From NCBI GenBank assembly GCA_938074205.1, contig CALJES010000002.1, forward strand, positions 124,001 to 188,000: a stretch of DNA of 64,000 bases, in the 5' to 3' direction. Positions 33,633 through 38,446 of this stretch are shown in pieces. Position numbers and translations under genes: made by a program. The notes beneath the pieces are model-generated. The model saw only the letters and a program-made list of their open reading frames with translations, was not told the DNA's origin and made no database searches. Position 1 is the first letter of the stretch, and each line of letters opens with the position of its first letter. The DNA is from an uncultured bacterium (GTDB lineage: Bacteria; Armatimonadota; UBA5829).

Positions 33633-34538
33633 TCAGCGTGGTTTCGCTCGTGTCCCGGCGGATGGTTCGGGCTCGGGTTCATTCATCAGGTATTGAACCC
33701 TCGCGGCTGAATGCTTATAGGATGCCAATTGCTGAAAATACGTTTCCAATGCCGCACATTTCTGAGAGGTTGGTAACATCAACACTGGCATTCCCAGCGT
33801 AACTTGCGAGTATAGCTTTTCGGCATCTCGCGGATGCAGCCGTATGCAGCCGTGTGAAGCGGGATGTCCGAGACGTCTTATAACCGACGTAGCGTGTATC
33901 GCGTATCCTTCGTAAAAGAAAAGACTATAAGGCATCCATACTTGCCACTTTTTACTCCAGTGTCTTTTTGTCTTTCGATAGACCTTGTACACCCCCTCCC
34001 TAATGTCGTAGCTAGGAAGGGCTGTTGAGCAGATGAAAACATTCATTAGATTTCCTGCAGCCAGGTGGTAGACTTTTTGATCCGCTCGGCTGACAATAAT
34101 TGCGTTCGGAGGTACGAAGCTTACAGGCACCACCGCTTCGCCTACTTGGTAACCATTGCGAAAAGCTTTGACCTTCAGCCAACCTACCAACGGCCGCTCA
34201 GGGGGTGCCCAGACATATTCTGTGGTCTGTAGTTTGGTAGCAACTTCGACGTCGAATGCTTTGCCGTCTCTTGACATAGTGATCGAGAAGCGAACGTCAT
34301 CACCGAATCCGCTTTCCCAAGAGATCCTGATTTGGTCGGTGGTCGATAGGTTTGCGAATTCAGTCGGGTAGAGAATCCTTATGTGTGGTGGTGGGGGTTG
34401 ACTGGGCTCTGCAGAGTCGTACATAGCATACTCTTCTTGAGTTGCTGACCGTGATGCCAAGGACATACTGCAAGCTGAGACAAGTATGATGAAGATAGTT
34501 AGCACGCTTAACACTCGACGAGTCATCATCTCAACCAT
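33633..34538 (-). CDS. L,D-transpeptidase (YkuD family), probable lipoprotein
   Basis: Predicted 301-residue envelope enzyme forming 3-3 peptidoglycan cross-links or attaching proteins to peptidoglycan. The hydrophobic N-terminus ends in LVSACS, an acceptable lipobox. An Ig-like segment (about 50-140) precedes the YkuD domain, whose catalytic motif IHATSVIRRLGHPASHGCIR includes the nucleophilic Cys in SHGCIRL. I choose ATG 34538; a GTG at 34583 or an ATG three codons in are alternatives, none with a strong ribosome-binding site. The gene is separated from the upstream STN gene by a terminator. Confidence 0.88.
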   Translation of the reverse strand: MVEMMTRRVLSVLTIFIILVSACSMSLASRSATQEEYAMYDSAEPSQPPPPHIRILYPTEFANLSTTDQIRISWESGFGDDVRFSITMSRDGKAFDVEVATKLQTTEYVWAPPERPLVGWLKVKAFRNGYQVGEAVVPVSFVPPNAIIVSRADQKVYHLAAGNLMNVFICSTALPSYDIREGVYKVYRKTKRHWSKKWQVWMPYSLFFYEGYAIHATSVIRRLGHPASHGCIRLHPRDAEKLYSQVTLGMPVLMLPTSQKCAALETYFQQLASYKHSAARVQYLMNEPEPEPSAGTRAKPR

Positions 34539-34621
34539 AGAAACGCGGAGCCGTACACTCAGGTTTACTCGTGTCAACCTCACAGAAGTTAGCGGTGTCG
34601 TCTTAGCCCCTGGTGACTCAT

Positions 34622-34664
34622 AAAAACAACGGCGCGGATCTCACCTGGGTAGGGATCCGCGCCG
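34622..34664 (-). terminator. Rho-independent terminator after the Gly/Tyr-rich gene
   Basis: On the minus strand GGCGCGGATC and GATCCGCGCC form a perfect 10-bp stem (plus-strand arms 34654-34663 and 34631-34640) around a 13-nt loop, followed by GTTGTTTTT. It lies 37 nt after the stop at 34701. Confidence 0.85.
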
Positions 34665-34700
34665 CATATAGACTTTAGGCCGATAGGGAGGAACGTGGGT

Positions 34701-35624
34701 TTACCACACTCTTCCGTATCCTCCGGGGTAACCTCCATATCCGCCGTATCCGCCGTAACCACTGTAACCGCGGTAACCACCGTATCCTCCGGGGTAACCT
34801 CCATATCCGCCGTATCCACCGTATCCGCTGTATCCACGGTATCCACCATAAGTGCCGTAACCAAATCCGCCATAACTCCCATATCCGCTGTATCCACCGT
34901 ATCCACCGTATCCACCGTATCCACGGTAACCCCCGTAGGTGCCGTAACCATAGCCACCGTAGCCCGGATATCCGCCGTACATTCCATACATTCCCATTCC
35001 ACCGTATTCTCTCCCTGAACCGCCAAGCATCGCTAAGACCTCAGACGCACTCAGGTGAGTAAGCGGTACCTTTTCAATAACGACCTCGCGCTCAATCGGC
35101 TCTTCGACTACTTCGACGGTGGAAGCTGTAGTAGTCGTCACAGGAGTTACGGGTTGCTCCGGTTTCTTGCTGATTATGTAGATTTCGGACCCGCCGGTAT
35201 TGTCGACGCGGTATACGAGACCTGCCGTCTTGCAAAGATTTCTGAGTGCGGTTTCGAACTCTACGTCCTTGAACGAGACCGACGGCACAATCCCTGAGAC
35301 GTTCGAGTCGATAGCGTAGTTCTTGCCGGTGTTCTTGAACATAGCTTCTATGGCAGATCTGATGTCTATATCTTTCAGCTCTAGGTTGATCAAGTGCTGC
35401 TTGTCTTTTGGGGACGCTCCGTCGTTTCCAGTATTTGCCTGGTAAAGTTTGGCGGTATGGTCCTGCCCGTTCGCCGGTGGTGTAACAGACACAGGCGGCT
35501 TCGAGACCGGATCCTCAAACGTGGGATGCCAACCGGAAATGCGTCTTTCGCTAGTTTTTTGGGCAAACGTGCAAGTCACAGCTAGGGCAAGTATGAGTGC
35601 AATTAGCGATAGTCGTCTAATCAT
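34701..35624 (-). CDS. Secreted STN-domain protein with Gly/Tyr-rich repeat tail
   Basis: Predicted 307-residue exported protein. A signal peptide (IRRLSLIALILALAVTCTFA) is followed by a secretin/TonB short N-terminal (STN)-like domain at about 80-155 (INLELKDIDIRSAIEAMFKN ... VSFKDVEFETALRNLCKTAG). A charged linker comes next, then from about residue 200 to the end a tail of almost only Gly, Tyr, Ser, Pro and Arg in YGGY and GYRGY units. ATG 35624 has GGGGAGG 8 nt upstream. No secretin beta-barrel follows, so it is not a normal secretin. The tail resembles structural or adhesive low-complexity proteins; function unknown. Confidence 0.75.
   Translation of the reverse strand: MIRRLSLIALILALAVTCTFAQKTSERRISGWHPTFEDPVSKPPVSVTPPANGQDHTAKLYQANTGNDGASPKDKQHLINLELKDIDIRSAIEAMFKNTGKNYAIDSNVSGIVPSVSFKDVEFETALRNLCKTAGLVYRVDNTGGSEIYIISKKPEQPVTPVTTTTASTVEVVEEPIEREVVIEKVPLTHLSASEVLAMLGGSGREYGGMGMYGMYGGYPGYGGYGYGTYGGYRGYGGYGGYGGYSGYGSYGGFGYGTYGGYRGYSGYGGYGGYGGYPGGYGGYRGYSGYGGYGGYGGYPGGYGRVW
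34716..34985. repeat. Tandem Gly/Tyr-coding repeat
   Basis: The tail of the STN protein is a degenerate tandem array. The clearest copy pair begins at 34716 and 34782 with a 66-bp (22-codon) period encoding GGYRGYSGYGGYGGYGGYPG-type units. Upstream, shorter blocks with GYGTYGGYRGY recur twice. The near-identity of the 66-bp copies suggests recent duplication. Confidence 0.8.
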
Positions 35625-35863
35625 AGTTGAAGCCTCCCCGTGCTTGGTCGCTGTTCTGCTCAGCATGTTATCACAAGTTTGGACCCGTTACCACAGTCTA
35701 TCTTTATCGCAGTATATATACCCACACGTTTAGACGAGCCATATCGACTTCGGTTCCAGTGTAACAATCATTTGCGGAGTTTGGAGCAATACGACAAGCA
35801 GGACAAGAGTGTCTTGGTGCCCAAGTTATAATCTAAGCTAGATCGGTTGGGAGGGCGTATAGT

Positions 35864-38446
35864 ATGCGACTCACTGCAACGTTAGTGTTGTTAATGGTTT
35901 TATTGTGTGTTCAGATATACGCTGCTGCACTGGTGTCGGATCCCACGGCGTATTGTCCTCCGGCTCCTCCTGGAATGGTCAAAGTGGATGGCTCGCTTGA
36001 TGAGATAGTATGGCAAATCCCTCCTGTAGCCTCCGGATTCGTAACAACTGATGGCAAGGAGCCGAAAGAACAAACGGAGGCCTGGGTTGCGTTTGGTAGG
36101 GATGGAGTCTACTTTGCTTTTATGTGTTATCAGCAGAAGATGGGTGAGGTCGGCGATGCTGCCAAGGGCTCACCTTGGCGAGAAGACTCTGTAGAACTCT
36201 TTCTTGATGTCAATGGCGACCGGTCAACATATCACCACTTCATACTCGGCGCATCCGGAGCCAAGTTCCACGAGTTAGTGAAATCGGCGGCTCCGCGGGT
36301 GAAAAACGAGCCGGTCGAGTGGGAAGGTTTGGCCAAAGTCGCCGATGGGAGATGGATGGCTGAGATTTATGTGCCATATTCAACCTTAGGAGTGACTTTG
36401 AAAGAGGGTTCCGTTCTTCGTGCGAACCTGTGCCGAAACAATATAGCTGTAGGAGAAAGCACTTGTTGGGCAAAAGTGAACGGCGGTTTTCATCAGCCGC
36501 TGCGCTTTGGAAACATTGTGATGGGCATACCGATCCACCGCGCCGCCTTTACTGTTGAGGTGGACGAACCCCTCCTCACGGGTACTGTGCGCTTCCGAGT
36601 GGTCGCGCAGAACCCGGCGCCATTTGATATCAATGTTACCGGAATAATATTTCCAGGTAGCAGGAAGCTGAAATCCCAGCAGCAGTTTATAGTCCCTGCG
36701 GGTAAGTCAGCTTCTACTGAGCTTAATATTGATATACCTACACCGGGTGACATTAACATTCGTCTTCTTGCAGCTAATGCACGTTCGGGAGCCGCAGTAT
36801 CTGAAATGAGTTTTAGCGCAAAGGTGGAACCTGCCCCACCGGCTGCTGTTGGCGGCATCATCACAAGTCAGAACTGGGGTACGCTGTGGTACTCGATTTC
36901 AACTTTCAAAGTAATGCGCGACACCACGCCGCCGGCGAACAAAGTAGCTGCTGTCCGAATATCTGCTGCGAGAAATGAATACGAGGCATTTCAACTAGTA
37001 CTGCGGCCGACTAAGACATTCTCGGGCGTCAAAGTTACACCGCGCACTCTAATCGGACCTAAGAAATCGACTATCCCCGCATACAACATCGTTGTCAGGA
37101 ATGTCGAATATCTGAATGTTACGGAACCCACAAGTGCAGATGTTCGGCCCGGTTGGTACCCAGATCCTCTGCCCGAGTTCAGTCCTTTCACGGCTTCTGC
37201 TGGTAGGAATACTCCCGTTTGGGTAGCGGTATACGTGCCGCCAAAGACAGCTCCAGGAGATTATAAAGGCACTATTGATATCGCAGCCCCAGGACTTAAG
37301 CTCTCAGTGCCTGTAATAGTACACGTATGGGATTTTGAGCTACCTACAGTGAGTAGGCTTCGCACCGCCTATGGCTGCGGGATGAGTGGTCCATCAACAT
37401 ACCACGGCGCTACTACGCTAGAACAAAAGCGCAAACTGCTCGACCATTACAACCGCGAGTTCTGGCGACACAGAGTTGCGCCATATGAACCTTATAAGTT
37501 TTATGAGATCAAAGGCACTGTCGAGAATGGACGTATAAAACTCGATTTTTCGGAGTTTGATATTGCAATACAAAAGTATTTCGCGCTGTTCAACGGGTTC
37601 AAACTACCAGGCTTTGCGATGGGCGAGACCGGGGGGATGGACTTTGGCGACAACTACGATCAGTTGAAGATAGAGTACATGCGCATGGTTGCGGAACATC
37701 TACTCAACAAAGGACAGCTCTCAAAGGGCTACAACTATATTTTTGATGAACCTACGCCGGAAGACTATCCGAATGTCAAACACGCGGCAGAACTTTGCAG
37801 AATGGCCGACCAGCGTATAAAAGTTCTTTTGACCGAGCAAGTAGAGGACGAGTTAATCGGCTACGTTGATATTTGGGTTCCTTTGCTAAGTTCGTACGAC
37901 GAGCAGAAGTCAAAAGCTCGTCAGCAGGCGGGAGAGGAAGTTTGGTGGTACGTATGCTGTGGTCCCCATCATCCGTATCCGAACAATTTTATTGACTACC
38001 CGGCTATCGATCATCGCATTCTGCACTGGATAACCTGGCGTTATGGCGTCAACGGGATTCTGTATTGGAACACAACATACTGGCGCGACAATCCCTGGGA
38101 GACACCTATGAGTTATACCCCTGACGGAAAGGGCAAATGGGGCAACGGCGATGGCCGCCTGCTGTACCCACCGGTGAAAAAGCCTTCAGCGAAATTCGTT
38201 GACAGAGGTCCGATTCCTTCGATCCGTTGGGAAATGATCCGCGACGGCATCGAAGATTATGATTACTTTGCAATCCTCAAGGCAAAGCTGGCAAAGGCCA
38301 AGCCCGGACCGGCGGTTGAGAAAGCCAAAGCGGCGCTGCAGCTTGTCAATGAACTTGCAAAATCGCGCACTGAATATACCAGAGATCCAGCAAAGCTTGA
38401 GTCCGCAAGGGAAGCAGTAGCTCGGGCAATTGAGAGCTTGAGGTAG
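35864..38446 (+). CDS. Secreted glycoside-hydrolase-like protein with CBM9-like and DUF4091 domains
   Basis: Predicted exported 860-residue protein. After a signal peptide (LVLLMVLLCVQIYAAA) there is a CBM9-like carbohydrate-binding domain (about 30-225, VDGSLDEIVWQIPPVASGF ... DSVELFLDVNGD). A middle beta-rich domain follows, then a C-terminal TIM-barrel-like DUF4091 region (about 500-830) with FDEPTPEDYPNVKHAAELCR and IRWEMIRDGIEDYDYFAILK. Family members are presumed glycosidases acting on plant or microbial polysaccharide; the catalytic residues are not assigned. GGGAGG precedes the ATG by about 10 nt. Monocistronic. Confidence 0.8.
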   Translation: MRLTATLVLLMVLLCVQIYAAALVSDPTAYCPPAPPGMVKVDGSLDEIVWQIPPVASGFVTTDGKEPKEQTEAWVAFGRDGVYFAFMCYQQKMGEVGDAAKGSPWREDSVELFLDVNGDRSTYHHFILGASGAKFHELVKSAAPRVKNEPVEWEGLAKVADGRWMAEIYVPYSTLGVTLKEGSVLRANLCRNNIAVGESTCWAKVNGGFHQPLRFGNIVMGIPIHRAAFTVEVDEPLLTGTVRFRVVAQNPAPFDINVTGIIFPGSRKLKSQQQFIVPAGKSASTELNIDIPTPGDINIRLLAANARSGAAVSEMSFSAKVEPAPPAAVGGIITSQNWGTLWYSISTFKVMRDTTPPANKVAAVRISAARNEYEAFQLVLRPTKTFSGVKVTPRTLIGPKKSTIPAYNIVVRNVEYLNVTEPTSADVRPGWYPDPLPEFSPFTASAGRNTPVWVAVYVPPKTAPGDYKGTIDIAAPGLKLSVPVIVHVWDFELPTVSRLRTAYGCGMSGPSTYHGATTLEQKRKLLDHYNREFWRHRVAPYEPYKFYEIKGTVENGRIKLDFSEFDIAIQKYFALFNGFKLPGFAMGETGGMDFGDNYDQLKIEYMRMVAEHLLNKGQLSKGYNYIFDEPTPEDYPNVKHAAELCRMADQRIKVLLTEQVEDELIGYVDIWVPLLSSYDEQKSKARQQAGEEVWWYVCCGPHHPYPNNFIDYPAIDHRILHWITWRYGVNGILYWNTTYWRDNPWETPMSYTPDGKGKWGNGDGRLLYPPVKKPSAKFVDRGPIPSIRWEMIRDGIEDYDYFAILKAKLAKAKPGPAVEKAKAALQLVNELAKSRTEYTRDPAKLESAREAVARAIESLR

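Follow-up and report, generated by a model that had tools for sequence, protein, structure and literature searches.

An orphan gene for a predicted exported N0-domain protein with a Gly/Tyr-rich tail, and its paralogue in the type IV pilus operon of Armatimonadota

Introduction

The window analysed here is the whole 64,000-nucleotide stretch of contig CALJES010000002.1 (positions 124,001 to 188,000) from an uncultured Armatimonadota bacterium, whose assembly amounts to 3.02 Mb and is 97.9% complete. On its minus strand, at 34701..35624, it encodes a 307-residue protein in which an STN-like domain is joined to a long Gly/Tyr-rich tail, and the question raised by the locus is what kind of protein this is. 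The label X is given here to the family of exported N0 proteins with a low-complexity tail, and the window gene, a paralogue of the pil-operon gene X, is referred to as X-orphan.

Domains of the X-orphan protein

The start at 35624 was favoured over a longer one at 35666, considering a typical signal peptide and a GGGGAGG sequence seen by eye about 8 nt upstream. The signal peptide (residues 1–21, 35562..35624; this and all the other gene features are on the minus strand) was judged by eye, and the AF2 model displays a helix at residues 2–23. Inspection by eye showed a lipobox neither in the window protein (AVTC) nor in the operon copy.

The N0/STN domain (residues 76–155, 35160..35399) was recognized by Pfam, by a PDB profile match to PilQ (E 1e-16), by AF2 (pLDDT about 90) and by Foldseek and VIA, which matched it to the N0 of PilQ and of other secretins. 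The Pfam scores of the window protein were just below the curated cut-offs, both for type_II_gspD_N0 (E 3.7e-5, 23.9 versus 27 bits) and for STN (E 9.7e-5, 22.5 versus 28.4 bits), but 52 of 55 members of the X family matched STN, so the domain call can be considered secure. After a short linker comes the start of an N1 domain, with only its first strand and helix (residues 182–202, VIEKVPLTHLSASEVLAMLGG, 35019..35081), delimited by profile alignment to the start of PilQ N1; it contains invariant I, K, P and L columns in the family alignment and a helix at 193–200 in the AF2 model. The secretin barrel domain PF00263 was absent from the Pfam scans of the window protein and of the operon copy. 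The same scans of the window protein gave neither a plug and 22-strand barrel after STN nor any cell-wall anchor or surface domain, and the protein ends after the tail. With the TIGR02515 model, the window protein scored 23.1 bits and the operon copy 44.2, versus a curated cut-off of 284.35 bits that the true PilQ of the source genome (174.2 bits) did not reach either.

The Gly/Tyr tail (residues 203–307, about 105 residues, 34704..35018), which ends in RVW, was delimited by composition and by the AF2 model, where residues 202–307 are below pLDDT 50. Both the export signal and the disorder of the tail are assigned by prediction or inspection. Downstream of the gene, a GC-rich stem followed by a T run (34621..34664, minus strand) is a probable intrinsic terminator, with a fold z of −2.74 for 34610–34700; it is missing from the list of a consensus scan whose loop limit was 8.

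Composition and conservation of the Gly/Tyr tail

The tail of the window protein is made of Gly (0.50) and Tyr (0.30) in large part, and contains no Lys. At the DNA level, the GYGGYGGY pattern occurred ten times in the 3.02-Mb genome, six in the window gene, four in its paralogue and none elsewhere, while the reversed pattern, taken as a control, gave no occurrences. Comparison with the same-genus orthologue (genome G002) yielded dN 0.014 and dS 1.51 for N0 (dN/dS about 0.01), and dN 0.054 and dS 2.03 for the 93 aligned codons of the tail, values to be read with dS saturated and the tail alignment uncertain. Strong purifying selection is apparent on N0, on the N1 start and on the tail, and it can be said from the substitution pattern that the reading frame of the tail is indeed translated and strongly constrained.

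A 66-bp tandem duplication is located inside the tail (34714..34847, 2.0 copies, 91% matches). The 66-bp period was not reported in the same-genus orthologue; the stretch GGYRGYSGYGGY occurs twice in both proteins, and the tails of this close pair differ by indels of 1–4 residues only. Over 59 rows of the X alignment, the tail length varied from about 50 to 119 residues, the shortest ones being cut by contig ends.

These results bear out the structural part of the original prediction, which had described at 34701–35624 an STN-like domain (now backed by the near-cut-off Pfam matches and the 52 of 55 relatives) followed not by a barrel but by about 100 residues of Gly/Tyr repeats with a 66-bp duplication. 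It had also supposed that the repeat number evolves rapidly, and this is weakly supported: the span of tail lengths speaks for it, whereas the small indels of the close pair and the purifying selection speak against. An assembly artefact is discarded, since the same-genus orthologue shares the tail and the near relatives have tails of its Gly-rich kind. Likewise, a tail arisen by chance was discarded in view of the orthologue, of the Gly-rich tails in most of the family, and of a tail dS far larger than dN.

Low entropy in the last 50 residues was found in 50 of 53 X proteins, 26 of 47 PilN, 29 of 48 PilO and 11 of 41 PilP, and in none of the PilM (0/50), PilQ (0/47) or AroB (0/27) proteins. 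Among the 46 non-overlapping ORFs of the window, only X was of low entropy at the C terminus. Gly/Pro/Ala/Met-rich C-terminal tails are frequent on PilN, PilO and PilP-like proteins (5589–8032 of L007, the pil-operon locus of the source genome, and other pil operons). Some distant X proteins have tails poor in Gly, with fractions of 0.04 to 0.23 in the last 70 residues (loci L116, which contains a run of N, L120, L121, L123 and L131), and in a few distant members Ser, Asn or Thr replace Gly. Gly is thus not indispensable.

The aromatic and Met residues tend to be spaced by three: in 20 of the 51 tails analysed, the z at lag 3 exceeded 2 (seven rows were left out, as was another in which F/W/Y/M residues were too few). 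A polyglycine-II fold was considered, but it was unsupported by AF2, with residues 202–307 under pLDDT 50, a low-confidence model with which such a fold is still compatible. The last residue was F, W or Y in 43 of 59 X rows, versus 10.9 expected, and W in 27, versus 1.1 expected; as three rows (L066, L075 and L095) are truncated at a contig end, one being a false count, the cleaner count of aromatic termini is 42 of 56. In the taxonomic family of the window, W was terminal in 20 of the 21 rows with a Gly-rich tail, and nearly all X proteins of this taxonomic family end in R-x-W or similar (34701–34712 in the window) despite their very variable tails. Since distant X members end otherwise, the terminal aromatic residue was not adopted as an outer-membrane signal.

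Occurrence of X in the pilus operon of Armatimonadota

The second-best X match in the source genome was 68% identical, had the same type of tail and was located inside a pilus operon, in the order: a protein of at least 1308 residues, pilM, pilN, pilO, pilP-like, X, pilQ, aroB. The identities of PilM and of the secretin PilQ were confirmed by Pfam and NCBIfam, and the labels pilN, pilO and pilP were given from position and weak or no matches. The large protein that opens the operon (L007, 1–3927) has no confident family and a weak GEVED match; in many relatives a homologue is found in the corresponding position. The barrel protein, PilQ, is encoded by the gene adjacent to the paralogue and is not fused to it. 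From the loci of the relatives, a fusion of the gene to a barrel elsewhere was discarded, so the refuting case named in the original prediction, a fused barrel in the closest homologues, does not hold.

Considering the source genome and 60 relatives, an X match at E ≤ 0.001 was obtained in 50 of the 61. In the loci examined there were 53 ORFs labelled pilQ, and X was directly upstream and on the same strand in 47. The six rows without X (L009 and L010 of the source genome, three in L060, and L132) are secretins of lower score, with 120–216 bits, versus 302 bits or more for those with X, except one cut by a contig end. Among 20 of these loci, picked by pilM from genomes where X was weak or unseen, X preceded 13 of 14 pilQ genes, with L132 as the exception. 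Genome G036 supplied one further pilQ with X upstream, raising the count to 48; G020 supplied two further low-scoring secretins, both without X, and in one additional pilQ the upstream slot runs off the contig. Altogether, X was present in 48 of 48 readable slots before a PilQ of the pil-operon type, one per genome, as counted with HMMs of X and the pil genes that were built partly from these same loci. A readable slot was lacking in eight of the 61 genomes (G001, G012, G020, G025, G032, G043, G046 and G055), and in five more (G028, G038, G044, G051 and G058) X comes after the pil genes where the contig stops. The association of X with the operon has its clearest exception in G020 (99% complete), where the X gene is present and a pilQ operon of this type was not found.

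A scan of a genome collection with the family alignment gave 13 loci, assigned by their titles to Armatimonadota/Armatimonadetes (nine), Abditibacteriota (one) and 'bacterium' (three). Plasmid records gave no match. Judging from these genomic data, X is a phylum-wide family in Armatimonadota and appears to be a fixed part of its type IV pilus operon.

Other N0 proteins were seen in these genomes. Two of a different build (L074 8830–9675 and L087 8928–10646) were left out of the X set; each is encoded near X genes and shows by eye two N0-like domains, and one of them ends in a zinc-ribbon-like pair of CxxC motifs. A paralogue group with a Pro/Tyr-rich C terminus (L008 5071–5979, L097 1931–2725, L098 5961–6737 and L099 5578–6354) has no labelled pil genes beside it in these four loci; it was kept out of the family alignment (55 of 59 rows) and included in the tree and in the tail composition. 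In L117 (1–1453) a tandem pair of N0 proteins comes after pilP, and only one of the two has a Gly-rich tail.

The orphan copy and its surroundings

No pil genes were found near the window gene. In the tree, it groups with other orphans and with operon copies of its own taxonomic family, in a 21-row set at 96%, and orphan copies arose several times. Nine further loci of this taxonomic family also contain orphan X genes. The window gene is an orphan paralogue, derived by a duplication within its taxonomic family.

Concerning the neighbours, a GH123-like gene is head to head with the orphan X in five of ten loci of the family (35864–38446 in the window, and L040, L042, L044 and L052), and the two genes possibly share a divergent promoter region. 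On the other side, a YkuD L,D-transpeptidase gene (33633–34583) is located on the same strand, 3′ of X and behind the probable terminator. It recurs as a neighbour of X only in the same-genus genome, and a link of X to the cell wall through this enzyme was dropped, the neighbour being confined to the genus.

Relationship of X to PilQ and to other N0 proteins

When the X profile was compared to PilQ structures, it matched 4ar0 (E 1e-16), 6ve2 and 6w6m (both 3.5e-16) over columns 3–122/123, which correspond to N0 and the start of N1. X is like the type IVa secretin PilQ in N0 and the first half of N1 by profile, in N0 by fold, and in being its operon neighbour; it differs from PilQ by lacking the entire barrel and all of N1 beyond its first half, by having a Gly-rich tail, and by forming a separate tree group. 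In the genomes examined, N1 of the PilQ of Armatimonadota is interrupted, at the position corresponding to the end of X, by a long low-complexity insertion, after which N1 resumes, and Pfam recognized in it only the second half of Secretin_N, after the insertion. In a tree of 91 N0 regions, the 59 X rows and the 32 PilQ rows were split at 99% SH-aLRT, in an alignment of 131 columns that left many forks unresolved. As X ends within N1 at the insertion point of PilQ, the best interpretation is that X branched off long ago from the N-terminal region of PilQ, from N0 to the middle of N1, the direction of descent being presumably from PilQ to X. The PilQ of these operons keeps its own N0, so X is not a replacement for a missing domain.

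The pairwise distances of X in 20 loci tracked those of PilQ (r 0.88), PilP (0.86) and PilM (0.72); after removing the contribution of AroB, the values were 0.75, 0.71 and 0.30, respectively. This lends weak support to a partnership of X with PilQ/PilP, as shared ancestry and saturation may explain such correlations. The AF2 model of PilQ (mean pLDDT 42.2) was too poor for use.

By fold, the N0 model of X matched PilQ (4av2, Z 10.1), DotD in 7mud (Z 8.4) and BfpBG (9u5s_R, Z 8.1), a chain taken as BfpG from the entry title and its length, and also XcpQ. As other STN-class domains and phage baseplate domains matched too, the fold alone proves nothing. TonB receptors and FecR-type regulators (FpvA, PupR, FecA) have STN domains of the same fold class, and X differs from them in lacking a plug, a barrel or an anti-sigma domain; a remnant of a TonB receptor was rejected, since the profile matches go to PilQ first.

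In the bundle-forming and toxin-coregulated pilus systems, the gene for BfpG or TcpQ lies beside the secretin gene. Like these type IVb proteins, X is small and exported, with an N0-like fold. Having N0 as the sole folded domain of an exported protein (signal peptide judged by eye), X resembles a detached N0 partner of a secretin; adjacency to the secretin gene holds for the family (the 48 readable slots) and not for the window copy. The differences are that X is encoded in a pilM-N-O-P-Q (type IVa-like) operon, and that it has N0 near the N terminus and a low-complexity C-terminal tail. At E up to 1, the TcpQ family was listed for neither the window copy nor the operon copy, and at E up to 0.01 for none of the 55 members, in searches whose HMMER filters drop weak matches. 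According to PMC4971541, BfpG is a non-lipoprotein that is needed to form or stabilize the BfpB multimer and whose place depends on BfpB, while TcpQ is needed to place TcpC. As for Dot/Icm, PMC2951367 describes DotD as a detached N0 domain of an outer-membrane complex, with a disordered extension, and the authors' model is a ring. DotD is in these respects like X; it differs in being a lipoprotein with an N-terminal disordered part, while X shows no lipobox by eye and its Gly-rich tail is C-terminal.

Proposed role of X and alternative explanations

Homology, operon position and purifying selection are established for X. The operon slot, the precedents of BfpG/TcpQ and DotD, and the distance pattern favour the view of X as an N0 subunit added to PilQ/PilP. 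We consider it fairly probable that X-orphan is the paralogue of a fixed part of the pilus operon, that X joins the PilQ/PilP assembly and that its tail acts in the periplasm. In this scheme, X would be exported by Sec to the periplasm, and would dock via N0 and the N1 strand-helix onto the periplasmic N0/N1 of PilQ, onto the domain of PilP that holds PilQ N0, or onto both. In Neisseria, as reported in PMC3441751, the C-terminal domain of PilP binds to PilQ N0 in the region of the first helix and strand of the latter, and the matching stretches of X are among its well conserved ones. Docked X would add a subunit or a ring where the channel opens into the periplasm, similarly to what BfpG possibly does for BfpB, and the disordered, aromatic-studded, lysine-free tail would fill or link the space around the channel and so stabilize or gate the assembly. 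The binding, the ring and the function of the tail are what we infer. The orphan would be a second source of this part, transcribed separately. The window copy may still act on the pilus, and the fact that it is conserved speaks for some function. The source genome encodes pilus-type ATPases, which makes a working machine plausible. These considerations suggest that the export channel of the Armatimonadota pilus is built with an extra subunit.

A bolder version, which we regard as rather doubtful, would extend the idea to a phylum-wide, gel-like periplasmic layer of low complexity, in which X would be a dedicated tail carrier, its detached N0 domains arranged in a ring and each bearing a lysine-free Gly/aromatic chain. 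Together with the Gly/Pro-rich tails of PilN, PilO and PilP, these chains would surround the moving pilus as a soft seal or bearing. The principle is comparable to that of the FG mesh of nuclear pores.

The universal place of X directly upstream of pilQ bears on two other readings. Since it suggests a stoichiometric part, it speaks against X being a competitor or regulator that would occupy PilP or the PilQ N0 ring and limit or time the assembly of the secretin, with the orphan as a conditional switch; N0 and half of N1 do mimic the PilP-binding part of PilQ, and a second copy does exist outside the operon, but an inhibitor is not expected in that slot and the tail would be left unexplained, so that we consider this unlikely. 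The same fixed place counts against the view of X as a matrix protein, put forward in the original prediction when it proposed a new envelope or matrix protein; the envelope part agrees with an exported protein, while the adhesive or matrix part does not fit a family that sits in a pilus operon. According to that view, X would leave the cell and its tail would polymerize or cross-link into an adhesive coat, for which the orphan could have been freed from the pilus. A tail with 50% Gly and 30% Tyr, an orphan gene that is probably transcribed singly, and the tendency of the orphan group to more Tyr than several operon copies of the family would suit such a coat; nevertheless, the strong purifying selection on N0 of the orphan pair (dN/dS about 0.01) and the Pfam scan devoid of cell-wall anchor or surface domain make it, if anything, slightly less credible than the competitor. 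Finally, that the window copy is a decaying duplicate with no role of its own is very improbable. Its location outside the operon and an N0 just below the Pfam cut-offs would be compatible with decay, but N0, the N1 start and the tail are strongly purified with respect to the same-genus orthologue, and orphans recur in nine other loci of the taxonomic family. The preferred reading of X is that of an additional N0 subunit of the PilQ/PilP assembly, the orphan being its paralogue.

Conclusions

No published description of such a type IV pilus component was found by title among open-licence full texts, outside which lie many subscription papers and all preprints. A gene that directly precedes pilQ in all the readable operons of this type, throughout one phylum, points to a probably undescribed component of the pilus channel. 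If this is true, the idea of the detached N0 would no longer be limited to type IVb pili and Dot/Icm, and would also cover a machine of the pilMNOPQ type whose secretin retains its own N0. X also raises the question of the task of a disordered, aromatic tail inside a pilus machine, and an anonymous STN-domain protein gains a named annotation slot.
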